Part shown: in pieces, positions 21,069 to 43,594 of the stretch
How the letters are laid out: each line of letters begins with the position of its first letter
Numbering within the stretch: position 1 is the first letter of the stretch
NCBI GenBank assembly: GCA_017510405.1
Contig: JAFWNG010000041.1
Location: forward strand, 1-64,000
Length of the DNA: 64,000 bases
From: Solobacterium sp.
GTDB lineage: Bacteria; Bacillota_I; Bacilli_A; Erysipelotrichales; Erysipelotrichaceae
Reading direction: 5' to 3'
Notes under the pieces: generated by a model
Database searches by the model: none
What the model saw: only the letters and a program-made list of their open reading frames with translations
Told to the model about the DNA's origin: nothing
Made by a program: the position numbers and the translations under genes

Positions 21069-21174
21069 TCCGTTCACATGAAGTCACGAATCAGCATTTC
21101 GGCGAACATGCCGGAATGCTATTTTTTGTTTAGTGAATGCTTTTCGCATACCGGAAAGAAAGGAGAATATCATT

Positions 21175-24100: not shown

Positions 24101-25989
24101 AGGCTGAGGACTTCGACATCCTGAACAACGGCCACTCCCACTACATCGACCTCGACGGCACCGGCGGAAACCGCTATGAAGACGATGAGATCTCTGTAAC
24201 AGTCGATGGCAGCAAGATCACCCTGACGGCACGTCCGTTCCGTTATCCGGGCATCATCGAAGCCGACCTGTCCACCGTCACCCCGTGGGAAGTCGTCTGT
24301 GAGAAGATCCCTGCCCTGTCCTTCAATGAAAAGAAGGTCCTGAAGCTCCACACGAACATCCTGGATGAAGCGGAACGCAAGTCCATCACATATGCCGGCA
24401 TCACACGTCAGTATGCCCTGTATGTACCGAAGGATGAAAACGGCAATCCGAAGAAGGATGTCCCGTTAGTGATCTGGAACCACGGCGGCGGTGAATACAG
24501 AGTCAATATTGAAGTGACCCTGACCGCGAACCGCGGCATGACCGCATGGAATGAACAGGGCTATGAATGCGCTGTCCTCGTTATGCAGGTATCCAACGCC
24601 AACTACAGCTACCGGGCAGCCACCAATGAATCCAAGAAGAGACAGATCGACCAGAACAACGCTCTGCAGGCCGAGATCGTCCGCCAGCTGATCGAAGAAG
24701 GAACCGTCAATAAAGACAGAGTCTATGTGACAGGCGCTTCCTCCGGCGGCGGTGCGACGATGCGCTTCCTGATGCAGTATCCGGAAATGTTTGCCGGTGC
24801 GATCGCCATGTGCTCCATGGACCCGATCGTATGGGTACACCAGAATCCGAACTTCGACTATGACACATGTGTATCCGAGTTCGAAGAAGCATGGAAAGGC
24901 AAAGTATACACATGGGATGCGGAAGCCAATGCAATGGTCGAGAAGGACGTTGATACAGAAGCACTGCTCAATGTACCGATCTACTTCACACACGCAGAAA
25001 AGGATCCTACATGCTCTGTGAACTCTTCCAAAGCAATGTACGACTCCATGAAGAATCTGGGTGATGAAAACAACATGATCCGGATCTACTCTGAGGATGA
25101 CATGACCGCTGCAGGCATCTCCAACGGTCTGAACTACGGTCTGTATCACTGGAGCTGGGTCAACGTCTTCAACGAAGTGAAGTACGGCAGCGAAGAAACA
25201 CCGATGCACTGGCTGTTTGAGCAGACCAACGCAGCCACTCCGGAAGAACTGATCGAAGCATTCGTGACCCGTCTCTATGAACTCTGTCTGGACCGTGAAC
25301 CGGATGAGGAAGGATTCGAGACATGGTGCACACTGCTCAGCGACGGCAGGATCACCGCTGCCGAAGCAGTCCAGGGCTTCTTCAACAGTCCGGAAATGAA
25401 TCAGAAGGAACTGACGGATGAAGAATGGGTCGAAAAGTGCTATGAAGTCATTCTCGGCAGATCCAGTGACGGTGAAGAAGGCGCAGGCTGGGCGGAAACA
25501 CGCAGCAAAGGCGTATCCAACAACTACATCCTGAAGGGATTTGTGGAAAGCGAAGAATTCAAACAGATCGCTGCGGAATACGGCCTCGATCCGGGAAAGA
25601 TCGAACTGAACGAAGCACGTGACCAGAACCCGGACATTACCGAGTTCATCAGCCGCTGCTACACGGAAGCACTGGGAAGAAAAGGCGATCCTGCCGGCAT
25701 CAATACCTGGTGTGCAAAGATCCTGAGTGCAGCGAACAGTAAGCAGGCCGCGATCGAAACGGTGTCCAACGGCTTCCTCCACTCTCCGGAGTTTGTGAAC
25801 AGGAAAACGACCGATGAGCAGTATGTCACGATCCTGTACCGGACATTCCTGGGAAGAGATCCGGATACCGCCGGATACAACGGATGGGTAAACCGTCTCA
25901 AGTCCGGCATAAGCCGTGATTCCGTCATGATGGGATTTGCATATTCGAAAGAGTTTACCGATCTCATGGCAAAATACGGAATCAGATAA
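21175..25989 (+). CDS. Secreted triple-module esterase with DUF4214 repeats
   Basis: A 1604-residue secreted protein. The start is GTG at 21175, 8 nt after AAAGGAGA; this gives the signal peptide MNLKRLAALFAASSTLIAGL ending near VIA-EE. An acidic Glu/Pro linker (about residues 27-100) leads to three near-identical 415-residue modules. Each has an Ig-like subdomain and an alpha/beta-hydrolase esterase with LVIWNHGGGEYN, the nucleophile elbow GASSGGGATMRF, an acidic A-E-[NK]-DPTCS and histidine in YHWSW. All three catalytic sets are intact. Four 50-residue units with LGR-x-D and W motifs (two DUF4214 domains) form the C-terminus. No LPXTG is seen. A plausible role is de-esterifying host or plant glycans; the substrate is unknown. 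Confidence 0.85.
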   Translation: MNLKRLAALFAASSTLIAGLHTPVIAEEPDVSEEPEITEVSETPEITEEEEIKETEVIEEAEEPEVSETAETSEEGEPEPEQPGEPADPEEPEEPEEPAQSAVIQSITADTRAGDGGREVWSFVITVDDAAKIADLAAEDFDILNNSHSHYYSGDNSIGVPYDDDGITLTVNDAVITMNVRPFRYDGMVKADFSAVPWEVVCARDAGLSFTAENVTTVKTNILDEAARKEITYAGLTRKYALYVPKDDRGNPKKNVPLVIWNHGGGEYNIDIEATLLANRGLTAWNEQGYECAVLVMQVANPNYSYGAANDENKKKLIDQNNAVQAEIIRRLIHEGTVDPTRVYVTGASSGGGATMRFLMQYPELFAGAIAMCSMDPIVWIHHNSNFEYAAAVSGFEEAWKGSVYTWDAEAEAMVEKNVNTQALLNVPIYFTHAENDPTCSVNSSKTMYDAFKNLGDTNNKIKIYSDEDMAAADIGSALGYALYHWSWCNVFNEVKYGGEETPMHWLFQQKKELTAVEVESIEALAKVGDGAVEVSTFRITVKEGYADKIAGLTAADFEISNNSHSHYFNVDGSIGVPYEDDEIEVSVEGNVITLKAKPFRYNGMVSASFADVPWEVKCFAVEGLDFKKENVTSLKTNILDEAERKEITYAGLTRRYALYVPKDENGEPKKDLPLVIWNHGGGEYNIDIEATLQANRGLTAWNEQGYECAVLVMQVANANYSYGAANDENKKKLIDQNNAVQAEIVRQLIAAGTVNEDRVYVTGASSGGGATMRFLMQYPELFAGAIAMCSMDPIVHVHQNRQFNYNTAVSQFEDAWQGTVYTWSEDEQAMVKKYVDTNTLINVPIYYTHAEKDPTCSVNSSKTMYDSFKNLGDENDMIRIYSEDDMTAAGISSASNYGLYHWSWVNVFNEVKYGEEETPMHWLFEQVRTKAEEDPAAVKVENIEAFAKVGDGAVEVYKFEITIAEKDAAKIADLKAEDFDILNNGHSHYIDLDGTGGNRYEDDEISVTVDGSKITLTARPFRYPGIIEADLSTVTPWEVVCEKIPALSFNEKKVLKLHTNILDEAERKSITYAGITRQYALYVPKDENGNPKKDVPLVIWNHGGGEYRVNIEVTLTANRGMTAWNEQGYECAVLVMQVSNANYSYRAATNESKKRQIDQNNALQAEIVRQLIEEGTVNKDRVYVTGASSGGGATMRFLMQYPEMFAGAIAMCSMDPIVWVHQNPNFDYDTCVSEFEEAWKGKVYTWDAEANAMVEKDVDTEALLNVPIYFTHAEKDPTCSVNSSKAMYDSMKNLGDENNMIRIYSEDDMTAAGISNGLNYGLYHWSWVNVFNEVKYGSEETPMHWLFEQTNAATPEELIEAFVTRLYELCLDREPDEEGFETWCTLLSDGRITAAEAVQGFFNSPEMNQKELTDEEWVEKCYEVILGRSSDGEEGAGWAETRSKGVSNNYILKGFVESEEFKQIAAEYGLDPGKIELNEARDQNPDITEFISRCYTEALGRKGDPAGINTWCAKILSAANSKQAAIETVSNGFLHSPEFVNRKTTDEQYVTILYRTFLGRDPDTAGYNGWVNRLKSGISRDSVMMGFAYSKEFTDLMAKYGIR
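21478..22713 (+). repeat. Esterase module, copy 1 (direct repeat about 1.24 kb)
   Basis: First of three tandem in-frame repeats, each with an Ig-like part and an esterase part. It is highly similar to the next two at nucleotide level, especially across the nucleophile elbow at about 22200-22315. Confidence 0.8.
22714..23985 (+). repeat. Esterase module, copy 2
   Basis: Second tandem copy, starting near the codons for AVEVESIEALAKVGDG. The elbow region at about 23457-23570 is almost identical to copy 1. Confidence 0.8.
23986..25230 (+). repeat. Esterase module, copy 3
   Basis: Third tandem copy, starting near the codons for AVKVENIEAFAKVGDG and ending at MHWLFEQ. It is somewhat more divergent in the Ig-like half than copies 1 and 2 are from each other. 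Confidence 0.8.
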
Positions 25990-28129: not shown

Positions 28130-28156
28130 ATGCTTTCTCTGGAATATATGCATTGA
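28130..28156 (+). CDS. Possible 8-residue leader peptide
   Basis: A tiny frame MLSLEYMH is preceded by GGAGGTGATC, a near-perfect Shine-Dalgarno 3 nt from its ATG. Its stop codon overlaps the ribosome site of the Rpn gene, so its translation could couple to or modulate that gene. There is no other support, and chance is possible. Confidence 0.25.
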   Translation: MLSLEYMH

Positions 28157-28167
28157 AGGGAGAGTAT

Positions 28168-29304
28168 ATGCTAAAGCCAAAGCTGATCAATATTCAGGAT
28201 ATGCGTCTTCTGGATGATGCATTCTTTGCCGCAGCCATGCAGAACTGTATTCCTGCTGCAGAAGCACTTCTGCATTGTCTATGCGGGGATACCAGCCAGC
28301 ACGTGATCCGCAGTCAGATCCAGGATTTTCTTCCAAATCTTCAGGGAAGAGCGGTCAACTGTGACCTGGTCATATACAGTTCTGACGGTACTGTCTGGAT
28401 CGTTGAAGTTCAGCGCAGCAGAAAAGGCGCCAGACCGCACCGTTCCCGCTATATCGCCAGTGCCTGGGATCATCAGAGTCTTCCAAAAGGAACACTGTGG
28501 AACAAACTATCAAGGCTTCGAATCGTCTTTATCACAGAGTCCGACTGCATCGGCAACGGGGAACCGGTCAATTATTACCTGCGGAAAAACCAGTTTTTCA
28601 ATGATATCCTTGCGGATGATCTTGTCGTTATGTATGTAAACTGTTCCTGTAACGGAAAGAAAAGATCCGGACTTGACGCACTGATCCACGACATGAAATG
28701 CAAAGATCCAGAAACAATGTATATTCCCGCATTACGGGACAGATGCAGTGAACTGAAAAATACAAGAGGAGGAAATACTATTATGTCTGAATACATCATG
28801 AGAGTGTATGGAGATGAGATCCGCATCAAAGCCGGCAATCTTGCCAGGGACATGGCGCAGGACATGGCGCAGGACATGGCACGAAACATGGCGCACGATA
28901 TGGCACAGGACATGGCACGAGATATGGCACAGGACATGGCACGAGATATGGCGCACGACATGGCACACGACATGGCACAGGATATGGCGCAGGACATGGC
29001 GCACGACATGGCACAGGATATGGCGCACGACATGGCACACGACATGGCACACGACATGGCACAGGATATGGTACAGGATATAGCCAGAAAAAAAGTACGC
29101 AAAGTAAAGCAGAAAGCCAGAAAGAGACTCAAAAAAAGACAGGGAAAACTAATTGTTTCTCTCTATGAATATTTACATAACGAAAAGCCGGGATTCTCTG
29201 TCACAGAGATCACACGGCAAATATCGGATATTTCAGGTATTTCCAGAGAACGTATCCTTCACACTCTGACCAAAAAGAAGCTGATTCCGCAGGAATCCGT
29301 GTGA
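28168..29304 (+). CDS. Rpn/PD-(D/E)XK nuclease-transposase family protein with DMAx repeats
   Basis: A 378-residue protein from the ATG at 28168, after AAGGGAGAG. Residues 1-220 match the Rpn (recombination-promoting nuclease, putative transposase) family. The nuclease core is D66 in NCDLVIYSS and E80-V-Q82 in WIVEVQRSRKG, followed by HRSRYIASAWDH. Residues 228-303 are nineteen tetrapeptides D-[MI]-A-[QHR], probably helical. A lysine/arginine-rich stretch and a 60-residue C-terminal domain follow. Rpn proteins cut DNA and some repeat-bearing members act in phage defence. The repeat makes length variation likely. Confidence 0.8.
   Translation: MLKPKLINIQDMRLLDDAFFAAAMQNCIPAAEALLHCLCGDTSQHVIRSQIQDFLPNLQGRAVNCDLVIYSSDGTVWIVEVQRSRKGARPHRSRYIASAWDHQSLPKGTLWNKLSRLRIVFITESDCIGNGEPVNYYLRKNQFFNDILADDLVVMYVNCSCNGKKRSGLDALIHDMKCKDPETMYIPALRDRCSELKNTRGGNTIMSEYIMRVYGDEIRIKAGNLARDMAQDMAQDMARNMAHDMAQDMARDMAQDMARDMAHDMAHDMAQDMAQDMAHDMAQDMAHDMAHDMAHDMAQDMVQDIARKKVRKVKQKARKRLKKRQGKLIVSLYEYLHNEKPGFSVTEITRQISDISGISRERILHTLTKKKLIPQESV
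28849..29076 (+). repeat. Nineteen tandem 12-bp units inside the Rpn gene
   Basis: Units of the form GAYATGGCRCRN (GACATGGCGCAG, GACATGGCACAC, GATATGGCACAG, GACATGGCACGA and variants) run without a break for 228 bp. A twentieth half-unit GATATAGCC follows. Because 12 is divisible by 3, gain or loss of units keeps the frame. Confidence 0.95.
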
Positions 29305-29333: not shown

Positions 29334-29361
29334 AAAAAGAAGCAGGCCTACACCTGCTTCT
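29334..29361 (-). terminator. Terminator of the PTS operon
   Basis: On the minus strand, AGAAGCAGG / CCTGCTTCT with a short loop is followed by TTTTT. The stem overlaps the stop codon of the 90-residue membrane protein gene. In the plus direction the tract is weaker, but it may also serve the Rpn gene. Confidence 0.75.
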
Positions 29362-29620
29362 TCCTTTCGCGTTCTGCAGCGTCCAGTATTTTTTCAACAT
29401 TGCGCCTGCCGTTGGTAATGCCTCTGTGCAGCGTCATGGCAATAAACATGGCTGCCACTGCCAGAAGCACACCGGCCGTGATATAAAAGCCATTGCTCTT
29501 GTATATGCCGAACCACGCGATCACAACACCGATTCCGGAGATCACGATTGCAATGGTGCGCCACGAGGCAATACGGCGAAGCGCTGCCGTCTGCATCTCA
29601 GCTTCTTTGATCAGATCCAT
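29348..29620 (-). CDS. Small two-span membrane protein at the end of the PTS operon
   Basis: A 90-residue protein with two hydrophobic segments near residues 21-39 and 45-66 and a charged C-terminus (NVEKILDAAERERKKQV). I do not recognise the family. It is the last gene of the PTS operon, 116 bp after the IID gene and separated from it by a strong hairpin. It may assist the permease, but nothing in the sequence shows this. Confidence 0.65.
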   Translation of the reverse strand: MDLIKEAEMQTAALRRIASWRTIAIVISGIGVVIAWFGIYKSNGFYITAGVLLAVAAMFIAMTLHRGITNGRRNVEKILDAAERERKKQV

Positions 29621-29646
29621 ATATTGTGCACCCCCTCATGGAAAGC

Positions 29647-29681
29647 GAACAGCAGATCTGTGCGGTGCAGATCTGCTGTTC
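29647..29681 (-). other. Strong intergenic hairpin in PTS operon
   Basis: A perfect 14-bp stem (GAACAGCAGATCTG and its complement) with a seven-base loop sits between the IID gene and the small membrane gene. It lacks a T tract, so it is more likely an mRNA processing or stability element than a terminator. Confidence 0.6.
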
Positions 29682-29736
29682 CAGCAAAGAAAAGAAACAA
29701 TAACAGAAAGAAAGGGGAACAATACGTTTTCTTTGC

Positions 29737-30579
29737 TCAGTATGTCAGACCCGGATCGAAGAATCCGACCAGAACACCGACGAAAGCAATGACAACGAGC
29801 AGCAGCATTACTTTGATCGGGGACAGTCTCTTCTTCGCCATGAGCCACCAGCACAGGATGACGAAGCATGCTGTGAGGATGCCTGGGAATACACTGTCGA
29901 GTTTTTCCTGCAGTACCATGTATGCTTCGCCTGCTTCATTGAACAGAGCAAAACTTGTCTTGACGCTTACCCATGTTGCGGATACGGCACCGATGACGAT
30001 TCCGCCCAGTGTCGTAACAGCTTCACGAATGGCTTCACCGATATCGCCGATCAGGAATTCAACTGCTTTTGTACCAAGTTCATAGCCCTTGAAGTACAGC
30101 ATCTTCATTCCGAAGTATGCGAACAGGTTCCAGACTACGATATAGAAGATCGGTCCCATCGGGCTTCCGCCGGAGGACATACCCATGGCGATACCGAGAA
30201 GGATCGGGATAACTGTACCGACGACCAGAGAGTCACCGATACCGGCGATCGGGCCCATAAGACCGGCACGCAGACCGTTGATGGTTTCATCGTCTACGTC
30301 TTCCTGTCCGTTTGCACGAGCCTCTTCCAGACCGGCTGTGATACCGACTACGACAGTACCGAGCTGCGGCTCAGTATTGAAGAATGCGGTATATGTGTTC
30401 ATCGCTTCAGCTTTTTTGTCATCGTTGCCTGCATACAGTTCATCTACCAGCGGGAGCATTGCGCACAGATAGCCGAATGTCTGCATGTGTTCCTGCGAGA
30501 AGCAGGTCAGATTTCCGTAGTACCAGTTATGGAAACTCTTGGTAAGAGCCTTTTTAGACAGTTTCTTAGCCTCTGTCAT
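29737..30579 (-). CDS. PTS mannose/fructose/sorbose family IID component
   Basis: About 280 residues from the ATG at 30579, which follows GAGGAGG by 9 nt and the IIC stop by 1 bp. The N-terminus LTKSFHNWYYGNLTCFSQEHMQTFGYLCAM is the IID family start, given here as residues 10-40. The central region has LMGPIAGIGDSLVVGTVIPIL near residue 110. The C-terminus has hydrophobic spans. IID pairs with IIC as the membrane sugar channel of a mannose-class PTS. The substrate is not certain; the 6-phospho-beta-glucosidase nearby hints at a beta-glucoside. Confidence 0.92.
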   Translation of the reverse strand: MTEAKKLSKKALTKSFHNWYYGNLTCFSQEHMQTFGYLCAMLPLVDELYAGNDDKKAEAMNTYTAFFNTEPQLGTVVVGITAGLEEARANGQEDVDDETINGLRAGLMGPIAGIGDSLVVGTVIPILLGIAMGMSSGGSPMGPIFYIVVWNLFAYFGMKMLYFKGYELGTKAVEFLIGDIGEAIREAVTTLGGIVIGAVSATWVSVKTSFALFNEAGEAYMVLQEKLDSVFPGILTACFVILCWWLMAKKRLSPIKVMLLLVVIAFVGVLVGFFDPGLTY

Positions 30580-30580
30580 G

Positions 30581-31429
30581 TCAGATATCCTCCTCATCAT
30601 CGTCAAAGTCCGCTGCTGCGCCTGCTGCGGCCGGCTTTCTCAGCTGGAGAAGCTTCAGCTTGTAGATCAGGATGGCGAACATACCTGCTACGACGGTAGC
30701 GGATACCAGGTTGATTCCCATGGATGCTGCAAGTGTGAATCCGAACAGATACGGAATGAAGTCTGCAGCGTTCCGAACGATCTGCTTAAGCAGAATGGCA
30801 ATACCTACACACGGTAAGAGGGAACCGACTGTGAACAGTGTCTTCATTGCAATGCCGTCCATCGGCAGAGCAACTTTGATCGCGTCAACAACATTTGCAC
30901 CGAGTTTGCACATGATGACTGTCGGGATCAGAGAGAAGCAGATATGGGAGATCCACGGATAAACCATGTCTACCATGTAGAGCTGCTTGTAATTGCGCTT
31001 TTCAACAGCTGTCCAGCCGATGTGCTGCCATAACAGGTTCATCGTAGCTGTGCCGTAGAACAGAACGGTACCGATCGTACCGACCATGGTACCGAAGGAT
31101 GTAGCCAGAGCTGCGCCGTCAGCGGAAGCAGCGTCGAGGCCGTAGCTCTTAAGAGCTACCATTGCGAGAGGAATACCGATATAGGATACGGCACGTACGT
31201 CCGCAGATACCGTTCCGCCCGGAGTGACCAGTGCGATATAAACGACCTGCATCGCCGCACCGACCATGACACCGGTCGCTATGTCACCGAGAATGATTCC
31301 GCAGACAAGTCCGCCGACGAGCGGTCTTCCCAGCGTATAGTTACCGATGGAAGTGCCGCCCATACCGGGCATACTTGAAAGGGATGCAAATAAACCAAGC
31401 AGGATAGCCTGCAGCCAGCTGATTGTCAT
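30581..31429 (-). CDS. PTS mannose/fructose/sorbose family IIC component
   Basis: A 282-residue polytopic permease subunit. It starts MTISWLQAILLGLFASLSSM, then GRPLVGGLVCGIILGDIATG near residue 34 and MVGAAMQVVYIALVTPGGTV near residue 55, as in the IIC family. The acidic tail DFDDDEEDI is unusual but short. It translocates the sugar together with IID while IIB phosphorylates it. It lies 22 bp after the IIB gene. Confidence 0.92.
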   Translation of the reverse strand: MTISWLQAILLGLFASLSSMPGMGGTSIGNYTLGRPLVGGLVCGIILGDIATGVMVGAAMQVVYIALVTPGGTVSADVRAVSYIGIPLAMVALKSYGLDAASADGAALATSFGTMVGTIGTVLFYGTATMNLLWQHIGWTAVEKRNYKQLYMVDMVYPWISHICFSLIPTVIMCKLGANVVDAIKVALPMDGIAMKTLFTVGSLLPCVGIAILLKQIVRNAADFIPYLFGFTLAASMGINLVSATVVAGMFAILIYKLKLLQLRKPAAAGAAADFDDDEEDI

Positions 31430-31451
31430 ATTCTATCTCCTTAATTATCTT

Positions 31452-31949
31452 TTAGTCCTTGAATCCGAACTGTCCGCGGAATTTTCTCCAGTTGCCGATC
31501 GCTTCTTCTTTCAGCAGTGCGAATTCCACTTCGTAGCCGGCTTTCATGATTGCTTCGAGAGCCTCAGCCTCTTCCTGTGTGATGGACTGGTTGTTGCCGA
31601 GCTTGACAGCACCCGGACGGTCGTTGCACGGTCCGATAATGACTGTCTTGACGCCCGGCTTGAAGCCCTGGTCAACAAGCAGCTTCTTCATGTCCACCGG
31701 GTTCTTGGTGATCAGGAAGTAGTTGTCTTTGCTGGCGAGAACTTTTTCGCACTTTGCCTGGAACTCGTCGAGGGACCAGACGAAAGTCTTCTTGCCGCTG
31801 GCGCTCTTGTAAGCCGACTTCAGGACCGGGTTCTTAGCCGCTGCATTATTTACGGCGATCAGTCCGTCGCACGGATACTCCAGTGCCCATCTGGTGCAGG
31901 TCTGACCGTGGATCATACGGTCATCTACGCGAATGAATGATACTGACAT
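31452..31949 (-). CDS. PTS mannose/fructose/sorbose family IIB component
   Basis: A 165-residue cytoplasmic subunit with the phosphorylated histidine at H14 in VDDRMIHGQTCTRWA. It receives phosphate from IIA and passes it to the incoming sugar. The later SKDNYFLITKNPVDMKKLL region is typical of the family. It sits 18 bp after the IIA gene; length is normal. Confidence 0.93.
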   Translation of the reverse strand: MSVSFIRVDDRMIHGQTCTRWALEYPCDGLIAVNNAAAKNPVLKSAYKSASGKKTFVWSLDEFQAKCEKVLASKDNYFLITKNPVDMKKLLVDQGFKPGVKTVIIGPCNDRPGAVKLGNNQSITQEEAEALEAIMKAGYEVEFALLKEEAIGNWRKFRGQFGFKD

Positions 31950-31967
31950 GATGTGTTTTCTCCTTTC

Positions 31968-32399
31968 TCAGATGTCATCTTCCGATTCTTCAACAGCCAC
32001 CTGGAATTCCTGGATCATCTCTCTGGATTCCGGAATAACGCTGCTGCGGATGTGCTCTTTCAGGTCTTCCGCATAGTCTTTGGACAGAACTGTGTTCAGA
32101 ACGATCGGCAGATTCATGCCTCCGACCATAATTGTCTTGCCCAGAAGACCTGCTTCACCGAGTACATTAGCTGTCGTTGTCAGCGGTGAGCCGCCCACGA
32201 TGTCTGCAAACACGGCAATTTCATCTTCAGCAGTGATGTTCTTGATGACTTCGCGCAGATTTACCGCGAATTCATCGGCACCCATGCCGTTTTTGAGGCT
32301 GGTGGAAAGAATGTCTTCTCTGCTTCCCGCCAGCATTTCAATTGCCTTGTGCAGTCCCGGAGCGAATTCCCCATGACTGACCAGTAGGACATATCTCAT
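31968..32399 (-). CDS. PTS mannose/fructose/sorbose family IIA component
   Basis: A 143-residue subunit from the ATG at 32399, which follows GAGGAGGTTCCATC. The phosphorylated histidine is H9 in MRYVLLVSHGEFAPGLHKA; IFADIVGGSPLTT, given here near residue 60, is the second family motif. It takes phosphate from HPr. A terminator-like hairpin ends only 30 bp upstream of this start, so expression of the PTS genes may depend on read-through or a promoter overlapping that hairpin. Confidence 0.93.
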   Translation of the reverse strand: MRYVLLVSHGEFAPGLHKAIEMLAGSREDILSTSLKNGMGADEFAVNLREVIKNITAEDEIAVFADIVGGSPLTTTANVLGEAGLLGKTIMVGGMNLPIVLNTVLSKDYAEDLKEHIRSSVIPESREMIQEFQVAVEESEDDI

Positions 32400-32428
32400 G
32401 ATGGAACCTCCTCTATCTGTCAAAATGA

Positions 32429-32458
32429 TAAAAAAAAGCACCTGTTGTTTTCAGGTGC
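32429..32458 (-). terminator. Terminator or attenuator between sensor and PTS genes
   Basis: On the minus strand, GCACCTG / CAGGTGC with a seven-base loop is followed by eight T. It lies just 30 bp before the IIA start. TATCAT at the end of the T tract (32425-32430) could serve as a -10 for the PTS genes. Confidence 0.8.
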
Positions 32459-32477
32459 AAAATGTCATGTATTACAT

Positions 32478-32489
32478 TGACAAATGTCA
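32478..32489. promoter_or_regulatory. Palindrome TGACA-AA-TGTCA before PTS operon
   Basis: A dyad TGACAAATGTCA overlaps the stop codon of the binding-protein gene, about 80 bp before the IIA start. A further TGTCA half-site lies at 32463-32467. The same element, TGACAATTGTCA, occurs before the sensor operon at 36827-36838. It is a candidate site for the LuxR-type regulator encoded between them. Confidence 0.5.
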
Positions 32490-33791
32490 CTTGTTTTCAC
32501 TTAGAAACTCATTGATTTCACGCTGAAGTGACAATAGTCCATCGCCCCGGGAACTGTCATTTTCCGCTTCTTCGCGCACGCCGTTTTCCGCCATCATGAG
32601 GGCTCTGTCATAGCCCGGGAAACGGTGTACTTCGACAGCCGAAGTCATGATCCGGTGGATCACTTCGGCATCGAATTCCGTTGTGCCGGGAATGTCTTTC
32701 TGCAGCAGCTCCACGATGCCGCTGTTTTCTGCGATCTCGGCGATCGGCGAGATGCCGCGGGAATATTTGTACAGATCCAGCTGGATCTCCCGGTCGTAGC
32801 ACAGCAGCTTCAGGAATTCCCATGCCAGTTCGGGATGATCCGCCCGGGAGCTCATCCCCATCAACATCGTCTGCAGTACGGATACGTTGTCCCCATCCGG
32901 TCCGGCCGGCATCGGCAGGCCGTCCCACTCAAAGTTCGTATACTTTTTAACGCGCCACGGAAACGGCTGGTACATCCGGTATTCGGAATACAGGAACGGA
33001 CGGAACACCACATTGCCGAGGTCGAAATCACGGGATGTCACGATGCGTCCGTGATTCATTTCCTCCAGGCGCGATATAAAGCGGATCGCATCCCGGATAT
33101 TGCTGTCGGTCAGGCTGCACGAATCCCCGCGTTCGGAGAACAGCGACGCATTGTTGGCATACAGCGCGTCGTTCCACGAATAGTCATAGGTGCTGTACGC
33201 TTCCGGGATCCTCTCCGTCACCTGCTGACAGATGTTCAGGCAGTCATTCCATGTCCAGTCCGCCGCCGGCATATCGATGCCAGCCCGCGACAGCAGGGTC
33301 TTATTGACGAACATGATCGTCGGCACGCTTTCCTGCGGCAGAGCATACTGGATGCCGCCGCGCCTGCCGGCCGAAAGACACGGTTCATAGTACGCTTCCG
33401 TGTCAAACGATCCGTCCAGGAGGATCAGATGATCCAGCGGGGCCAGCGCGCCGGAAGTTACCAGCAGGTCAAAGTCCTCCGGCAGTACGAAATACACATC
33501 CGGCTCCCTGTCCATCAGGATCTGCTCTGTCAGCCACTCACTGTAGTCCGCCGAGCCGATCCCGCTGACATATTCCACCTTCACACCCTCATGTTCACTC
33601 TCAAAACGTTTGATCGCCTGGTCGAGGATCCGGTAACAGTCCCCGTTCGGCGAATCCCAGTAGCTTCCCGCGTATACGCCGACACGCAGCGTCACGGTCC
33701 GCTTATGCGTAAGATCCACCGTTCCCCAGATCATGATCAGAAACGTCATGAGGATCACAAACCAGCCGATATTTTTCTCCGCTTTATCCAT
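32487..33791 (-). CDS. Membrane-anchored extracellular solute-binding protein (family 1)
   Basis: A 434-residue protein with an uncleaved-looking N-terminal span (residues 8-26) and a family 1 sugar-binding fold: FESEHEGVKVEYVSGIGSAD, a QILMDREPDVYFV segment, VNKTLLSRAGIDMP and late WEFLKLL. There is no lipobox cysteine and no ABC permease or ATPase gene nearby. The start overlaps the regulator stop by 8 bp, so it belongs to the sensor operon. It probably senses or delivers a sugar to the neighbouring two-component system or PTS; this role is inferred from context. Confidence 0.85.
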   Translation of the reverse strand: MDKAEKNIGWFVILMTFLIMIWGTVDLTHKRTVTLRVGVYAGSYWDSPNGDCYRILDQAIKRFESEHEGVKVEYVSGIGSADYSEWLTEQILMDREPDVYFVLPEDFDLLVTSGALAPLDHLILLDGSFDTEAYYEPCLSAGRRGGIQYALPQESVPTIMFVNKTLLSRAGIDMPAADWTWNDCLNICQQVTERIPEAYSTYDYSWNDALYANNASLFSERGDSCSLTDSNIRDAIRFISRLEEMNHGRIVTSRDFDLGNVVFRPFLYSEYRMYQPFPWRVKKYTNFEWDGLPMPAGPDGDNVSVLQTMLMGMSSRADHPELAWEFLKLLCYDREIQLDLYKYSRGISPIAEIAENSGIVELLQKDIPGTTEFDAEVIHRIMTSAVEVHRFPGYDRALMMAENGVREEAENDSSRGDGLLSLQREINEFLSENK

Positions 33792-34461
33792 TCCAGTCGC
33801 TGTCCTGCATCGCCATGCCGTTCTGCACTGCCCAGATCGCCAGCTGCGTGCGGTCTCTGAGACCGAGCTTCAGAAGAATATTGCTGATGTAGTTGCGTAC
33901 CGTCCCTTCCGACAGATACAGCTTGCCGGAGATCTCCCGGTTCGACATGCCGTGTCCGACCGCCTTGATGATCTTCCGCTCGTTGTCATTGAGATCCGCT
34001 GCCGAAGCTTCATCCACGTGGATCACTTCGTTTCCCTTGGCCATCGCCGAAAACTGGCTGATCACCTTGGTGGCGATCCCCGGATTGATCAGTGCTCCGC
34101 CGCCGTAGGCAATGCGTATCGCCGACGCCAGTTCGCCGATGCTGGATCCCTTCAGAATATATCCGCTGGCGCCGTATTTCAGGGCACCGAACACATATTC
34201 ATCGTCGTCAAATGTCGTCAGTACGATGACCTTGATCTCTGGCCAGCGGCTCTTGATCAGCCGCGTACCCTCCACACCGTCTTTTCCCGGCATGCGCATA
34301 TCCATCAGAACAACATCCGGCTGTTCCGCTTCCATCATCTGCAGCGCTTCCGTTACACCGGACGCGCAGCCGAGCACATTGATATCACCGGAAGACTGAA
34401 TAAGAATTTTCAGACTTTCCCGGAACATTTCCTGATCATCCACGATTACTGTCTGGATCAT
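33784..34461 (-). CDS. NarL/LuxR family response regulator
   Basis: A 225-residue regulator. The receiver has the acidic pair D8/D9 in VIVDDQEMFRES, the phosphorylated D54 in VVLMDMRMPGKDG, and the conserved T and K in VIVLTTFDDDEYVFGALKYGASGYILKGS. The C-terminal LuxR HTH runs LNDNERKIIKAVGHGMSNREISGKLYLSEGTVRNYISNILLKL (residues about 160-205). It follows the kinase gene by 1 bp and is its evident partner. Its likely targets are the sensor and PTS operons, which share a palindrome. Confidence 0.95.
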   Translation of the reverse strand: MIQTVIVDDQEMFRESLKILIQSSGDINVLGCASGVTEALQMMEAEQPDVVLMDMRMPGKDGVEGTRLIKSRWPEIKVIVLTTFDDDEYVFGALKYGASGYILKGSSIGELASAIRIAYGGGALINPGIATKVISQFSAMAKGNEVIHVDEASAADLNDNERKIIKAVGHGMSNREISGKLYLSEGTVRNYISNILLKLGLRDRTQLAIWAVQNGMAMQDSDWNG

Positions 34462-34462
34462 G

Positions 34463-35770
34463 TCAATTACCCCCTTTGATACTGCGAACCGGAAGACTGG
34501 CGATCACATAGAATCCTTCCTGGCCGTCCCCCGGATCATCTTTCCGGTTGCCGTACGTGACGGAACCGCTCAGCAGATCCAGCCTCTCCCGCATATGACG
34601 CAGGCCGAAGCCTTCCTTTATATCCGCGCTTCCCCTTCCGTTGTCGCGGATATCGATCAGCAGCGCGCTTTCCTGCTGGCGGATGGTCACGCAGATGGCA
34701 TCCGCATGGCCGTGCCGCACAGCATTCGTCAGACACTCCTGTACGATCCGGTACAGTGCGTCTTCTTCATCACTTGCAAAATATAAGTCGCCGGCTTCCT
34801 GGCGGAAATCCACTTTCACCGAAGTCGCGGCTTCGAACTTTTTGATCATTTCTTCCAGCGCCTGCTGCAGCGTATGCTTTTCCAGCGTATCCGGACGCAG
34901 TGCCCGGATCGACTGGCGTACGTCGCTCAGGCCGTCCCTCGCCGCTCCGGCAACTGCTTCAAGCCGCTTTCTCGCTTCTTCCGGCTGCCGGTCAAACAGC
35001 GCCAGAGACGCTTCACTGGCCATGATGATGCCGGTCAGCGTGTGGCCGAGCGTATCATGGATCTCCCGCGCCAGACGGTTTCTTTCCCGGATCTCCGTCA
35101 TGCGCTCCAGTTCGGAATTTGCTTTTTTCAGCTGGTCATACAGAGAGCGTATGCGTTCTTTTTCCGCCGATTCCCCGTTGAACAGCAGGACCATATAGTA
35201 CACGAACAGCAGGATATTCGCCGATACCAGCACGCTTTCGATCGCGGACAGGTATCCCTGGATCTTTGCGTCATAGAAGGAAAGATAGACCGAAAAGGCC
35301 ACTTTCCCAGTCTGCGCGGAAATAACTTCGTAGCGTCCGAAGGCAAAGATGAATACCAGGATCACCAGAAGCAGCACGCGCACTTTGTTGTCGCGTATAT
35401 AGTTGACAAGATCCGCCAGCACCAGCAGCGCGATCCCGGTGTAGTAGAAATTCAATGACCAGATGATGCCGATGCACAGAATGATCTCCGCAAAGCATAC
35501 GAATCCCGCATTCCTCGGAACGCCGTTTTCATCCGTCTGCTTGCGCAGGCTTACCGCCGTCAGAAGCGCGAACTGCGTCAGTGCGCCCAGCGGCACCATG
35601 AGCGGATTCTGCGGGATCGTTCCCGCCGCGGAAAGAAACTCATATGCCTGCAGGGAACGACAGATCCGGAATGTCGTGACCGGACAGATGATCCCGTAGA
35701 ACAGTATGACCGCAAAGTTGACCGCCAGCATGAGCATGGACGTATCCAGCACGCGTTTCTCAGTCCCCAT
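34463..35770 (-). CDS. Sensor histidine kinase (HisKA_3, NarX/DesK type)
   Basis: About 435 residues from the ATG at 35770, which shares a base with the upstream stop (TAATG). A GTG nine bases earlier is the alternative. Five or six membrane spans fill the first 195 residues with no large external domain. A coiled linker leads to the dimerisation helix with the phosphorylated histidine in LAREIHDTLGHTLTG (near residue 238). The HATPase domain has LTNAVRHGHA and IRDNGRGSADIKEGFGL. Lacking its own ligand domain, it may read the two binding proteins encoded on either side. Confidence 0.93.
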   Translation of the reverse strand: MGTEKRVLDTSMLMLAVNFAVILFYGIICPVTTFRICRSLQAYEFLSAAGTIPQNPLMVPLGALTQFALLTAVSLRKQTDENGVPRNAGFVCFAEIILCIGIIWSLNFYYTGIALLVLADLVNYIRDNKVRVLLLVILVFIFAFGRYEVISAQTGKVAFSVYLSFYDAKIQGYLSAIESVLVSANILLFVYYMVLLFNGESAEKERIRSLYDQLKKANSELERMTEIRERNRLAREIHDTLGHTLTGIIMASEASLALFDRQPEEARKRLEAVAGAARDGLSDVRQSIRALRPDTLEKHTLQQALEEMIKKFEAATSVKVDFRQEAGDLYFASDEEDALYRIVQECLTNAVRHGHADAICVTIRQQESALLIDIRDNGRGSADIKEGFGLRHMRERLDLLSGSVTYGNRKDDPGDGQEGFYVIASLPVRSIKGGN

Positions 35771-36744
35771 TACTGCCACCCGGTCAGATCAAACTCCGAC
35801 ACATTTTCCGCTGTGATCAGCTTTACCGGCACGATCACTTCTTTTTCCACCTGTTCGCCGGCCAGCACCCGGTATGCGATCTCCGCAGCTCTCTGCACCG
35901 CTTCATACGGAAACTGCGCGCACGTGGCGGTCATCAGCCCGTCGTGGATCAGTCCCTTCGCTTCCGGCGAACCGTCCACGCTGTATACCTGGAATGACTC
36001 CATACGGCCGCTTCCCTCGATCGCCGCCAGCGCGCCGAACGCGCTCGGATCATTCAGCGCCATGACCGTATCCGCCTCCGGATGATCGTCCAGCAGTCTT
36101 ACCATGACAGGCATGGCATTTTCGATCTGACCGTCGGATTCCCCGATCGCGACCAGCTCGAAGCCTTCGTGCCCTGCCAGTGTTTCGACAAAGCCCTGAA
36201 TACGCTGGGTGCCGGACCTCGCCGATGTATGTTCCAGAAGGATCACAGACGCACTTGTACGGTGCTTCAGAAGGTGCTGTGCGCACAGTACGCCTGCCTG
36301 GTAGTTGTCCGAAACGACGGTACATGTCACAAGGCGGTCGTCTTTCACCGGCGCGTCCACGACGATCACCGGCACATTCGCCCTGGCAGCCGTCTGCAGC
36401 GCTTCATCCACCGTATCCCATTCCACCGGTGTAATGAAGATCACTTCCGCGCCGGCGTCGATCAGATCTTTCACTTCCTGATTCTGCCGGTCCTGGTTCA
36501 TTGCGGCATCCCGCGTCAGAAGCACATCTCCGTGTTCCTCGATCACCGCCCTCAGCCGGCTGTCCAGCATGGAGTAGTACGGGTTGTTCATGGTCATATA
36601 CGTTGCCCCGAAAACATGCCTGTCTTCGTTCTGTTCCGCCGTGATATCCTCCGGCCAGAAAAACAGGACATATACGGTCAGACACACGCATAATGCCGTG
36701 AGCACAAGTCCGATGCGTTTGTATAAGTCACGCCAAAAATCCAT
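35770..36744 (-). CDS. Membrane-anchored type I periplasmic sugar-binding protein
   Basis: A 324-residue protein with an N-terminal span (about residues 11-29) and a RbsB/LacI-like binding fold. Fold markers are HVFGATYMTMNNPYYSMLDS, a DAGAEVIFITPVEWD segment, ANVPVIVVDAPVK, VVSDNYQAGVLCAQHL and the C-terminal VYSVDGSPEAKGLIHDG. There is no lipobox. It is the first gene of the sensor operon and overlaps the kinase by one base. Together these suggest a ligand receptor for the kinase, as in other binding-protein/kinase/regulator triplets. Confidence 0.88.
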   Translation of the reverse strand: MDFWRDLYKRIGLVLTALCVCLTVYVLFFWPEDITAEQNEDRHVFGATYMTMNNPYYSMLDSRLRAVIEEHGDVLLTRDAAMNQDRQNQEVKDLIDAGAEVIFITPVEWDTVDEALQTAARANVPVIVVDAPVKDDRLVTCTVVSDNYQAGVLCAQHLLKHRTSASVILLEHTSARSGTQRIQGFVETLAGHEGFELVAIGESDGQIENAMPVMVRLLDDHPEADTVMALNDPSAFGALAAIEGSGRMESFQVYSVDGSPEAKGLIHDGLMTATCAQFPYEAVQRAAEIAYRVLAGEQVEKEVIVPVKLITAENVSEFDLTGWQ

Positions 36745-36768
36745 ACCGCCTCCAAAACGCCATACTTC

Positions 36769-36774
36769 ATTTTA
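36769..36774 (-). promoter_or_regulatory. Possible -10 of the sensor operon
   Basis: The minus strand carries TAAAAT 25 bp before the ATG, without a convincing -35, as expected if an activator is needed. The upstream palindrome centres about 58 bp further up. Confidence 0.3.
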
Positions 36775-36825: not shown

Positions 36826-36839
36826 ATGACAATTGTCAT
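36826..36839. promoter_or_regulatory. Palindrome ATGACAATTGTCAT before sensor operon
   Basis: A perfect 14-bp palindrome, about 88 bp upstream of the binding-protein gene. It shares TGACA-N2-TGTCA with the site before the PTS operon. Confidence 0.5.
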
Positions 36840-39734: not shown

Positions 39735-39792
39735 CACGGAGATGATAATGACCGTACAGAGATATGACAGATACACCGTTATGCTTTTTACC

Positions 39793-39816
39793 CCCTCTCA
39801 CAGAGAGGGTTCTTTC
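39793..39816 (+). other. Leader hairpin before the TerY-like operon
   Basis: CCCTCTC / GAGAGGG with a three-base loop, followed by TTCTTTC, ends about 40 bp before the vWA start. It could be a weak terminator used as an attenuator. Confidence 0.4.
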
Positions 39817-39856
39817 GTATGCAACACTATGTTCGTACAGCAAAGGAGGAAAAAAC

Positions 39857-40576
39857 ATGGGTGTACGTGATGGAATCATCACAAAAGATGAACTGAACCT
39901 GATACTGATTCTTGACAATTCGTATTCGATGGTAAACGGGAGAATCGCCCAGCTCAACAGCGCGATCCCTACATTGAAAAACAGTCTGATCAAAGTAGCC
40001 AGGGAAAATAACGTCGATCTGAAGATCCGCATCATTGCCTTCAGCGATGAAGCAAAGTGGGTCATCGGATCCGAAAAAGAAGGTGCGGACATTGAAACGA
40101 TCACCTGGAAAGATCTGACTGTCGTTGGCGGAACTGCCACCAATAAGGCGATTCGAGCCGTCAATAAAGCACTTTCCAAAAAGAATCTCGGCGGCGACCA
40201 CATCCTGCCTCCGGTCGTCATCCTGGTGACCGACGGCAACTGCAACCGTGAAGATCACGATGACTACCTGAAAGCAATCGAAGAGCTCAAAAAGCGTCTC
40301 GCCGGCAACACCGGGAAAGAAAAAGTTACCCGCATTGCCATCGGCGTAGAAGGCTACAACCGTACAGAGCTTGAGGAATTCGCTTCTGTAGGACGCATCG
40401 CTGATGTTGAGCAGCCGCTGATCTTCGACGTTGACAAGGCAACCGACCTTGGCAAGGTGATCAACTGGGTCACTGTCACTTCCATCATTTCCAGCATCGC
40501 TGAAGAAGAGGATATCATCGATCTCGGCGATCCGGACTGGGGCGATGATGAAGATGACGACGACAGCATCAAATAG
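39857..40576 (+). CDS. TerY-like von Willebrand factor A protein
   Basis: A 239-residue protein from the ATG at 39857, 7 nt after AAAGGAGG. It is a single vWA domain with a full metal-ion site: D-x-S-x-S in ILDNSYSM (D20, S22, S24), threonine in VVGGTATNKAI, and aspartate in ILVTDGNCN. The tail is very acidic (GDDEDDDDSIK). TerY-like vWA proteins work as scaffolds beside a PP2C phosphatase and a kinase in Ter-linked stress systems. It is the first gene of a six-gene operon, 65 bp before the phosphatase. Confidence 0.9.
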   Translation: MGVRDGIITKDELNLILILDNSYSMVNGRIAQLNSAIPTLKNSLIKVARENNVDLKIRIIAFSDEAKWVIGSEKEGADIETITWKDLTVVGGTATNKAIRAVNKALSKKNLGGDHILPPVVILVTDGNCNREDHDDYLKAIEELKKRLAGNTGKEKVTRIAIGVEGYNRTELEEFASVGRIADVEQPLIFDVDKATDLGKVINWVTVTSIISSIAEEEDIIDLGDPDWGDDEDDDDSIK

Positions 40577-40641
40577 CGTTCACGCAGGATCTGACGGGAG
40601 TCATCCGCATGGATACTCCCGTCTTTTAAAGGAGAACCGCC

Positions 40642-42192
40642 ATGGAAAAACAGCATACAGAATACAGAACGATCGTGTGTGATACCGCACGCAGACGGGG
40701 CAGAGGGCACATTGCCAAAGAGACGCCCTGTCAGGATTACTGTCTTTCATTCCCTGCAGGTGAAGGGCTTTTTGTGCTTTGCGCAGCTGACGGACACGGC
40801 GGCGACGAATATATCTACAGTGATCTGGGTTCTGAGCTTGCCTGTACGACGCTGAAGACCGCGGTGGAACGCTTTGCCTGCGGACAGGATCTGTCGGTAT
40901 TCCTCGGACTGGAATTCCGCAGAGCCCTGCTGGACAGCTGGAAACGCGCCGTACTGGACTTCCACGGTCCGGACAGCGAAAGTGATCTGCGCATCGCCCG
41001 CCGCTACGGCACAACGCTGCTCTACGCGATCGTTTCCGATACGGAAATGGTGCTCGGCCAGCTCGGCGACGGCGCCATCCTGATGTTCAACGACGACGGC
41101 GTATGGCAGCTGTTCAAGCGGCATGAGCCGAAGAGCGGTTCATCCACTTCTTCCATGGTCTCTTCCCGGGCCGTATATGCCCTGCATACAGAAAAATATT
41201 CCCGTTCCCTGTTTCCCCACGTGCTGCTTTCCACGGACGGCATCTATGACAAGCTGGACCACGGCGATTCCTTTCTCCGCTACGGGATGGGACTCCTGCA
41301 TGACACAAGAAGCCACGGGGAACTGACGGAGCCGTTCACGGTGGAAGGCATCGATGTCTTCGAAGAGACTCACGACGACTGTTCGATCGCCCTTCTGACT
41401 TCCCGCACAGGCTCTTCCCTGGAAATTCCCGAAGGCATGTCCTTTGTCCGGGCATGGGACGGCATCACCGTGTGCAGTGACGGCACGCATGAAGCACATA
41501 GCACCGGCAGACCTGCATCGGAAGTGATTCCCGATTCCTGCGCGTTTCATGTGCTGCCAGCGGAAGGCACCGATCCGTATCTCTATACTGTCCCGGAAGA
41601 TTCCGTGATGATCAGCGAGCTGATCGAGGAAGGAGAACACCTCTTCAAAAAGAACCGGGATGACGACGATGAAAGTCCGTGGACCAACAGTTTCTGGCTG
41701 GACCTCTGGACCCGGATGCACCGGGTGCGCGATCAGCTGCGCAGAAATCAGTGCATGCCGGAAGAGCATCTGCTGAAGACCGCCCGGGTCACGCCCGACG
41801 GCAGTCTCTGGTTCTTCCGTGACGCATTCTGCGGCCGTCCGTATGACGAAGCAGCCCTGAACGCACTGTTTGAGCGCTTCTTTGAACGCTTCAGTTTTAT
41901 CGGCATTCTTTCTCTCGGCGACCGCGTATGGCCGCTCACAGAGACCGGAAGCCGTTCTCAGATATTCACGTTCCGGAACGAGCCTCTCTGCCGTCTGGTC
42001 CGCAACAGCGACAGCGGTCAGTACGGCCTCTGGAACCTGACGGAAACACCATGGATCATTCCGGCGACCGGAAAGATCATCGCACCGAACAAGGTGCTGA
42101 AACTGCCGGAAGAGCATCCGGCGGACATCGGAGATACGGAGCACACGACGCTGAGTGCCGTGATCTTCGGGAAAGGAGAACTGCCATGCTGA
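40642..42192 (+). CDS. PP2C-family protein phosphatase with C-terminal extension
   Basis: A 516-residue protein. Residues 1-255 are a PP2C phosphatase: AADGHGGDEYIY (D50), LGQLGDGAILMF, LLSTDGIYDKLD and the final metal site THDDCSIALL. This removes phosphate from Ser/Thr residues using Mn or Mg. Residues 255-516 match nothing I know; they include an acidic linker (KKNRDDDDESPW) and WP/WII segments that may form a beta-rich domain. It overlaps the kinase gene by 7 bp, so the pair is probably made in equal amounts. The kinase, Hsp70 or vWA protein may be substrates. Confidence 0.9.
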   Translation: MEKQHTEYRTIVCDTARRRGRGHIAKETPCQDYCLSFPAGEGLFVLCAADGHGGDEYIYSDLGSELACTTLKTAVERFACGQDLSVFLGLEFRRALLDSWKRAVLDFHGPDSESDLRIARRYGTTLLYAIVSDTEMVLGQLGDGAILMFNDDGVWQLFKRHEPKSGSSTSSMVSSRAVYALHTEKYSRSLFPHVLLSTDGIYDKLDHGDSFLRYGMGLLHDTRSHGELTEPFTVEGIDVFEETHDDCSIALLTSRTGSSLEIPEGMSFVRAWDGITVCSDGTHEAHSTGRPASEVIPDSCAFHVLPAEGTDPYLYTVPEDSVMISELIEEGEHLFKKNRDDDDESPWTNSFWLDLWTRMHRVRDQLRRNQCMPEEHLLKTARVTPDGSLWFFRDAFCGRPYDEAALNALFERFFERFSFIGILSLGDRVWPLTETGSRSQIFTFRNEPLCRLVRNSDSGQYGLWNLTETPWIIPATGKIIAPNKVLKLPEEHPADIGDTEHTTLSAVIFGKGELPC

Positions 42193-43583
42193 AAAAGGGA
42201 CAGATCATTACTGACGAAAACGGCACTGCCTATACGCTTGTAAAGAAACTCGGTGCCGGCGGCCAGGCAGTCGTCTGGAAAGTCCGCGACAACAGAAGCG
42301 GAATACATTACGCCTACAAGCACTACCGTCACAACACCAGAAACGTCCGCTCCAATATCGAAGACCTGAAGAATATCGGTTTCTTCAAGGATAAGGACGG
42401 AAAGAAACTCGACTATGTCATCCTGCCGACGGCGATCGTCGAGGATGACGGCGACGCGTTCGGATACATCATGGAACTGGTCGACCTGAAAGACTTCACC
42501 ACCCTTCCGAAAGCATGGTGCGGCGAGTATCCCGATGCGAAAGTGATCTGCCGGATCCTCGGCAGTCTTGCGCATGTTTTCGAGACGCTTCATACCTCCT
42601 ACGGCATGTGCTACAAGGACGTCAATGAAGGCAATATCTTCTTTAATCCGAAGACCGGCGAGATCCGCATCATCGACAACGACAATATCGGCTACGCCTC
42701 CAAGTTCACGATCAAAGGCACGAGCCGCTACATGGCGCCGGAGATCTGCCTGGGTGAAAAGCCGACGCACAACTCCGACCGCTTTTCCCTTGCCGTCTAC
42801 GCGTTCCGTCTTCTGACCGGCGGCTATCCGTTCGACGGGCCGTACACCGAACGCTATTGCCGGGAACACAATATGCTGGCAAAAGACGCTGCGCCGGTCA
42901 TCTACGGCAGCGATGCCCGCTTTATCTGGAATCCTGCGGACACGTCCAATTCCATCGAAAACAGTACCGATCCGCGTCAGAAAGGACAGGTCGTCTACTG
43001 GAAGCGCATCCCGCAGCCGTTCAAGGACCTCTTCATCAGCACGTTCGTTACAAACCTGAAGCCGGACCGCAGAGCAGAGCGTCCCACAAACTCCGAGTGG
43101 ATCGATACCTGCCGCCAGCTGGAAGCGGAAACGGTCGTCTGCCGGCATTGCGGCACAGTGACATTCGGCACCGACGTATGTTTCGAATGCGGCAAGAAGA
43201 TCCGCAGAAAAACTGCGCCAAAGCCGACGCCCGCACCCGCCCCGGCACCGGTCACCGGACCTACGGCACACCGCCGCAGCGTAACGTTCCGCGTTCTGAG
43301 CGCCGGCGAAGCGAAGAAAGAGATCCGTCTCAACGTAGCGGATACCCGCAGCGGAAGCACGATCTCGAAAAATCTGCCGGACGGCGAGCTCTTCCGCATT
43401 CTCTACAGCAAGAAACAGAAGAAGCTCGGCATACGCAATCTCAGCAGTTCCGCATGGACGATCGTGCACGCGGACAAGACGAAAGCGACCTGTGCGCCGG
43501 GCGACGTACAGGCTCTGGAAGAGGGCATGATGATCCGCATCATCCCGAAGACCGCACAGCTTAATGTGCTTAAGATCGACTGA
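42186..43583 (+). CDS. Ser/Thr protein kinase with zinc ribbon and C-terminal beta domain
   Basis: A 465-residue protein from the ATG at 42186 after AAAGGAG. The kinase domain spans residues 1-310: glycine loop GAGGQAVVW (23-31), lysine K45 in YAYKHYR, catalytic D145 and N150 in YKDVNEGN, metal-binding IIDNDN instead of DFG, and MAPE at 183-186. The usual catalytic-loop lysine is asparagine here. A zinc ribbon (C319, C322, C332, C335) and a Pro/Ala linker lead to a 105-residue FHA-like or other beta domain. This is the layout of kinases in TerY-phosphatase-kinase triads. Confidence 0.9.
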   Translation: MLKKGQIITDENGTAYTLVKKLGAGGQAVVWKVRDNRSGIHYAYKHYRHNTRNVRSNIEDLKNIGFFKDKDGKKLDYVILPTAIVEDDGDAFGYIMELVDLKDFTTLPKAWCGEYPDAKVICRILGSLAHVFETLHTSYGMCYKDVNEGNIFFNPKTGEIRIIDNDNIGYASKFTIKGTSRYMAPEICLGEKPTHNSDRFSLAVYAFRLLTGGYPFDGPYTERYCREHNMLAKDAAPVIYGSDARFIWNPADTSNSIENSTDPRQKGQVVYWKRIPQPFKDLFISTFVTNLKPDRRAERPTNSEWIDTCRQLEAETVVCRHCGTVTFGTDVCFECGKKIRRKTAPKPTPAPAPAPVTGPTAHRRSVTFRVLSAGEAKKEIRLNVADTRSGSTISKNLPDGELFRILYSKKQKKLGIRNLSSSAWTIVHADKTKATCAPGDVQALEEGMMIRIIPKTAQLNVLKID

Positions 43584-43594
43584 GGAGGTGTCCT

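Follow-up and report, generated by a model that had tools for sequence, protein, structure and literature searches.

In a 64,000-nt stretch of DNA (the window) from Solobacterium sp. (assembly GCA_017510405.1, contig JAFWNG010000041.1, positions 1 to 64,000), we identified genes for two different sugar-binding proteins, a histidine kinase and a response regulator, followed by a complete mannose-class phosphotransferase system (PTS). This four-gene sensor module is conserved in gut and rumen bacteria. In our assessment it is likely to constitute a self-contained two-receptor sensor, in which membrane-tethered binding proteins would signal extracellular sugar through a DesK-type kinase and its regulator to the PTS. 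At the sequence level, this model is built on gene content, tethering, conserved gene order and co-occurrence, and the position and uniqueness of an operator palindrome.

Gene order and conservation of the module

ORF calls and sequence reading placed nine open reading frames (ORFs), a few overlapping slightly, on the minus strand at positions 29348-36744. In order of transcription, they encode an RbsB-like binding protein (receptor 1, 324 aa; 35770..36744), a histidine kinase with a GTG start (438 aa; 34463..35779), a NarL/LuxR-type response regulator (225 aa, Response_reg and GerE domains; 33784..34461), a family-1 binding protein (receptor 2, 434 aa; 32487..33791), the PTS components EIIA (31968..32399), EIIB (31452..31949), EIIC (30581..31429) and EIID (29737..30579), and a 90-aa protein with two spans (29348..29620), which is kept 3' of EIID in many loci and falls into no NCBIfam family. 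Pfam matches identified receptor 1 as Peripla_BP_4 (3e-42), the kinase as HisKA_3 (4e-21) with HATPase_c, and receptor 2 as SBP_bac_1 (1e-22). The four PTS proteins matched EIIA-man, PTSIIB_sorb, EII-Sor and EIID-AGA, respectively, all of the mannose class (Man/Aga/Sor), with the substrate subtype left unspecified. Together with hydropathy, these results confirm an initial annotation of the locus as two tethered binding proteins, a kinase and a LuxR-type regulator before a full mannose-class PTS. The receptor 1 gene overlaps the kinase gene by 10 bp, the regulator gene overlaps the start of receptor 2 by 8 bp, and no ABC (ATP-binding cassette) transporter gene was found within the window.

To follow the module across genomes, we scanned GTDB species genomes and collected 80 named loci, those that best matched the window; with relatives added, the set comprised 78 non-redundant loci. 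Contig breaks aside, the arrangement receptor 1-kinase-regulator-receptor 2-EIIABCD was present in most relatives fetched from two families of the window's taxonomic order. The recurrence that the initial annotation had proposed as a check was thus observed, both within this order and beyond it. The module occurs in Erysipelotrichaceae, Coprobacillaceae (Thomasclavelia), Oscillospiraceae, Butyricicoccaceae, Lachnospiraceae (Anaerostipes, Hungatella, Enterocloster, Lacrimispora) and Selenomonadales (Pectinatus, Megamonas), as well as in one Sphaerochaeta. An occurrence throughout the Bacilli was considered and dropped, the module being confined to the window's order in class and phylum samples. 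Because the arrangement is conserved across several orders, we regard it as beyond chance. Where 5.5 kb or more of sequence is available past receptor 1 (62 loci), the family-1 protein is always encoded, and the kinase is encoded as called in 60. The two exceptions (L071 and L113) carry a longer opposite-strand ORF at the expected position, and their gene rows suggest that the kinase is probably hidden by simple gene calling. The same 10-bp overlap between the receptor 1 and kinase genes is found in 48 loci.

Across the 78 loci, the module is flanked by a mannose-class PTS, upstream or downstream, in 56 cases, by an ABC transporter in 9 and by neither in 13, several of which end at contig breaks; in one genome (G048), the PTS and its operator lie on a separate contig from the module. 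Since the loci were collected as the best matches to the window and their relatives, ABC-linked forms are probably under-sampled. Having an extracytoplasmic binding protein gene beside kinase and regulator genes, the module conforms to binding-protein-assisted (three-component) systems. It departs from their usual, though not strictly defining, pattern of one receptor per kinase, as each kinase is accompanied by two different receptor folds. It is therefore best read as a two-receptor form of binding-protein-assisted two-component systems.

Genes for a Cof-type HAD-IIB phosphatase are repeatedly found next to the module (L040, L096, L104, L119, L122, L127, L129, L134, L140, L143 and others), in both PTS and ABC contexts, with a HAD match in 35 of the 78 loci; none was found in the neighbourhood of the window module. 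In two rumen relatives (L034 and L068), no transporter adjoins the module, but a 618-aa protein is encoded whose matches are Bmp/PnrA-like binding proteins.

Receptors, kinase and operator

Each binding protein of the window has a single N-terminal hydrophobic span, as called by hydropathy (residues ~11-29 in receptor 1), and lacks a lipobox. The fold begins ~15 residues after the span in the RbsB-like protein and, almost directly, ~9 residues after it in the family-1 protein. Among the non-redundant loci, a span is present in 73 of the 78 RbsB-like proteins, followed by linkers of 8-21 residues, and the family-1 proteins carry a span or lipobox in most loci, with linkers of 7-15 residues. Such short linkers would therefore hold both proteins close to the membrane, beside a kinase with short outer loops.

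The nearest named relative of receptor 1 (84% identity) comes from a sheep-rumen metagenome-assembled genome labelled Solobacterium sp., which makes a rumen Erysipelotrichaceae the probable source of the window. Among solved proteins, receptor 1 is nearest to ribose-binding proteins. The structural matches also include 5xss, which we take to be XylFII, and the "sensor protein" 2x7x, most likely BT1754, presumably of RbsB-type fold. The sugar-contact residues N13, D89, R141, N190, D215 and Q235 (roles and numbering after E. coli RbsB) are kept in 22-23 of 23 sequences, whereas S9 is replaced by M, R90 by A, S or T, and F164 by G in all 23. Receptor 1 also scores under the NCBIfam RbsB cut-off and, with its ribose-contact set not conserved, does not qualify as RbsB. 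It should bind a sugar; ribose is unlikely because three contact residues are replaced, although six are kept. The C-terminus of receptor 1 carries a near-invariant GWQ motif, possibly a docking or lid element. The alternative that the overlapping genes dictate this motif was rejected, as GWQ is also present in L128, L136 and L138, where the kinase is not directly next. Receptor 2 has as its nearest solved relatives binders of arabino-oligosaccharide and other sugars. It is more diverged (31-54% identity beyond the nearest genome), and many of its aromatic positions are almost invariant.

The kinase had been described as lacking a sensor domain. This is inexact: there is no periplasmic domain, but the N-terminal part is predicted to cross the membrane six times, leaving three outer loops ~8-28 residues long, two of them at residues 35-59 and 154-181. 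DesK is the closest match to its cytoplasmic part. An assignment of the membrane domain to a known sensor fold was discarded, since the best solved-structure matches span only the cytoplasmic part. The nearest solved relatives of the regulator are VraR, DevR, NarL and DesR. HisKA_3 kinases phosphorylate NarL-type regulators, which in turn bind inverted repeats.

Such a repeat, TGACA-WW-TGTCA, has two exact sites in the 3.27-Mb genome, located only 5' of receptor 1 and 5' of EIIA, compared to a chance expectation of 0.78. Operator 1 (TGACAATTGTCA, as ATGACAATTGTCAT; 36827..36838) lies 5' of the RbsB-like gene and is a candidate autoregulation site. Operator 2 (TGACATTTGTCA on the minus strand; 32478..32489) is followed 22 bp further on by a degenerate second copy (TGACATTTTGCA; 32456..32467, minus strand). 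Both copies precede a candidate -10 element of the PTS promoter, TATCAT (32425..32430, minus strand), whose role is suggested by its spacing: operator 2 would lie near -65 and the second copy near -43, which would be typical of activation. The gap between receptor 2 and EIIA also holds a terminator-like hairpin, GCACCTG..CAGGTGC with a T-run (32429..32458, minus strand), a consensus match only. Control of the operon by a riboswitch or another RNA element was set aside, Rfam giving no match.

To obtain an unbiased comparison across loci, we counted every palindrome with 5-bp arms and a central A/T pair. The TGACA palindrome leads after the receptor 2 gene (31 of 71 regions; next best 2) and 5' of receptor 1 (12 of 77 loci; next best 2), and is found 5' of EIIA/EIIB in 30 of 44 regions. 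Additional TGACA copies occur at +20-23 and +44-46 bp from the palindrome. The window operator equals the published DesR motif, ATGACA-N2-TGTCAT, and the pneumococcal RR11 motif, ATGACATTTGTCAT-N7-AGTGACA, has the same 22-bp step (PMC11034029), lending independent support to binding by the adjacent regulator. Taken together, the shared operator supports a tie between the regulator and the PTS. One genome with no close receptor 1 homologue (G044) has seven exact TGACA-WW-TGTCA sites, five of them on contig C120; a different DesR-type regulon possibly makes use of this palindrome.

Proposed signalling and alternative readings

We propose that two binding proteins of unlike folds, held by their spans at the outer face of the membrane, bind sugar outside the cell. 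Once loaded, they would touch the kinase at the short outer loops between its six spans and so determine how active it is, a step to which the conserved linkage and the tethering lend support, and the kinase would pass phosphate to the NarL/DesR-type regulator. The latter would then bind the TGACA-WW-TGTCA arrays and presumably act as an activator, rather than a repressor, of its own operon and of the PTS promoter. The signal is likely to be free fructose at the RbsB-like receptor, together with fructo-oligosaccharide or sucrose at the family-1 receptor; the outcome would be to raise PTS uptake while fructan is broken down outside the cell. Mannose-class PTSs import and phosphorylate sugars with no need for a binding protein. 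Since both binding proteins accompany the kinase and regulator wherever the contig suffices, mostly beside such a PTS and with a shared operator, the proposal of the initial annotation that they act as receptors rather than transport subunits is supported. A tentative extension, for which we would not claim an even chance, is that the kinase reads a monosaccharide (RbsB fold) and an oligosaccharide (family-1 fold) through separate loops, and that the cassette stays unchanged as the transporter is swapped from ABC to PTS and back.

The initial annotation had proposed measuring PTS transcription with different beta-glucosides. A beta-glucoside signal was not supported, as genes of glycoside hydrolase family 1 (GH1) lie near few loci and lack the operator in the window, whereas GH32 genes recur more often. 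GH32 fructan hydrolase genes accompany 7 non-redundant module loci, compared to 1.2 expected at the density seen across 28 genomes from the window's order (P ~3e-4, with loci treated as independent). Outside the module, the operator is found 5' of secreted or lipoprotein GH32 genes in three genomes (G037, G052 and G026), in the gap that separates a LacI-type gene from a permease operon, GH32 following within a few kilobases, in two (G026 and G032), and 5' of PTS genes in two (G039 and G041). At three ABC-linked loci, fructokinase is the best match of the sugar kinases, under the curated cut-off. These GH32 and fructokinase-like neighbors make fructose or fructan the leading candidate signal, with moderate confidence for a hexose and weaker confidence for fructose itself. 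A paper on fructo-oligosaccharide use reports Anaerostipes PTS genes by extracellular GH32 genes and mentions no histidine kinase or response regulator; the 821-aa neighbor of the module in A. butyraticus (L127) gave no Pfam match that would align that locus with the module.

Several observations weigh against this model. Operator copies are inherited by common descent, so that the loci are not fully independent, and relatives contain many other exact sites within coding sequence or 5' of unrelated genes, which are probably chance occurrences. All genomes checked contain GH32, even three that lack the module. The sugar-gene neighbor in the window itself is not GH32 but a GH1 phospho-beta-glucosidase gene, the operator in G026 also stands 5' of a GH1 gene, and glucose, mannose or amino sugars are further substrates of mannose-class PTSs. 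The latter points would suit the same wiring with glucose, mannose, galactose or hexoses in general as the signal, in which case the module would not be a fructan switch but a broad sugar monitor serving the main PTS, and the multiple-monosaccharide transporter GguAB-ChvE pairs with the module in some loci. Given the GH32 enrichment, the operator placement and the fructokinase-like kinases at ABC-linked loci, we consider this version unlikely, though a serious competitor. We are more doubtful that the RbsB-like protein is the only receptor, with the family-1 protein serving as a scaffold, PTS delivery protein or modulator that no longer binds ligand. Such a role would fit its greater divergence and its solved relatives, which bind oligosaccharides that the PTS may not import, but is difficult to reconcile with its presence wherever the contig is long enough and with its many near-invariant aromatics.

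The remaining alternatives question the wiring itself. It is highly improbable that the palindrome serves another regulator while the adjacent one acts elsewhere: DesR-like motifs do occur with other DesR-type systems, as the sites in G044 illustrate, yet both sites of the window genome fall in the operon, and in several orders there is a strong association between motif and module. About as improbable, in our estimate, is that the binding proteins are leftover or active subunits of an ABC transporter encoded elsewhere and that the kinase senses another cue, such as membrane state. Basal homologues adjoin RbsA/RbsC, and DesK, which reads membrane fluidity, is not known to use a binding protein. 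Against this stand tethers of 7-21 residues with no lipobox, the overlap of the binding-protein genes with the kinase and regulator genes, and the strict co-occurrence of the binding proteins with the kinase rather than with ABC genes.

Origin and relation to known systems

The linkage to ABC genes that the initial annotation named as grounds for refutation is seen at a minority of loci only (9 of 78). CUT2 (RbsABC-type) importers combine a binding protein with an ATPase and a permease, an arrangement lacking in the window and found only at two basal loci (L136 and L138), where the RbsB homologue itself resembles an ABC subunit. At four ABC-linked loci (L074, L077, L128 and L134), the ABC genes come with an additional gene for a ChvE-type binding protein. 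In a tree of receptor 1 alone, obtained by a quick search and rooted with two ribose-binding proteins, the Sphaerochaeta protein (L138) and L128/L136 fall outside a clade of the 75 other proteins (96% SH-aLRT, quick method), nearly all of which have a membrane span. The L138 protein is exported and encoded directly 5' of RbsA-RbsC, and those of L128/L136 carry a lipobox. Because the earliest branches thus have lipidated or exported RbsB with ABC genes, the tethered receptor 1 probably descends from an ABC-type binding protein. Within the clade, some lineages have GguAB(-ChvE) ABC genes by the module, with receptor 1 still tethered and receptor 2 carrying a span or lipobox. Four changes are needed to explain the PTS/ABC labels on the tree.

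Mannose-class PTSs of Firmicutes are usually viewed as controlled from inside the cell, by LevR-type activators and catabolite control. The module shares with DesK-DesR the combination of a DesK-related HisKA_3 kinase, a NarL-type regulator and an identical operator motif. It is unlike that system, which controls membrane lipid genes: DesK is not known to work with binding proteins, it senses membrane state, and the target is a desaturase, whereas the operators described here are sited at genes for the PTS, the receptor, GH32 and other sugar functions. In XylFII-LytS-YesN of Clostridium beijerinckii (details in part from PMC10384115), a dedicated RbsB-superfamily binding protein likewise signals to a membrane kinase and a sugar-uptake regulator, but with one binding protein, a LytS-type kinase and an ABC target, as opposed to two folds, a DesK-type HisKA_3 kinase, a NarL-type regulator and mostly a PTS. 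CuaDSR of Ruminiclostridium cellulolyticum also has a family-1 binding protein gene adjoining kinase and regulator genes, its product being a receptor and not a transporter (PMC10384115); that receptor is a lipoprotein, its kinase has an extracellular domain, the target is an ABC transporter and there is no second receptor. The periplasmic domain of BT1754 in Bacteroides thetaiotaomicron recognizes fructose in its monomeric form and governs the use of fructans (PMC3404733), but is fused to a hybrid kinase with AraC-type output and has neither a PTS nor a second receptor. In GltB-GtrS-GltR of Pseudomonas aeruginosa, a sugar-binding protein activates a kinase governing sugar uptake (PMC7927077); this Gram-negative system has a single receptor, encoded in the transport operon gltBFGK-oprB.

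The module departs from the binding-protein-assisted systems and from BT1754 in pairing each kinase with two receptor folds, in being built around a DesK/DesR-type core and in targeting a PTS. We found no description of this four-gene set in the open-access literature, subscription journals being outside the search, and the module, which is real and widespread, is apparently undescribed. If our model is correct, extracellular sugar is read by two receptors before PTS uptake in widespread gut and rumen anaerobes. As the module stands beside fructan hydrolases in several lineages, it may help decide which of them use dietary inulin and levan. It would also offer an easily read example of how a subunit for ABC transport became a receptor tethered to the membrane, and with two receptors obligatory for one kinase, signal integration would be open to direct testing.

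Upstream of the operon lies lgt on the same strand, named from sequence reading, and past it, on the opposite strand, the GH1 gene, of 6-phospho-beta-glucosidase type. An ORF adjoining the operon (28153-29304) contains a long (MAQDMAHD)-like repeat near its C-terminus, which arises from 12-bp tandem repeats and could vary in length or phase. On the plus strand, positions 39764-47025 hold consecutive look-alikes of a von Willebrand A protein, a PP2C phosphatase, a Ser/Thr kinase, an HSP70-like and a transglutaminase-like protein. Positions 21133-25989 encode a secreted 1618-aa protein in which three esterase-like repeats stand in tandem, with further repeats at the C-terminus.

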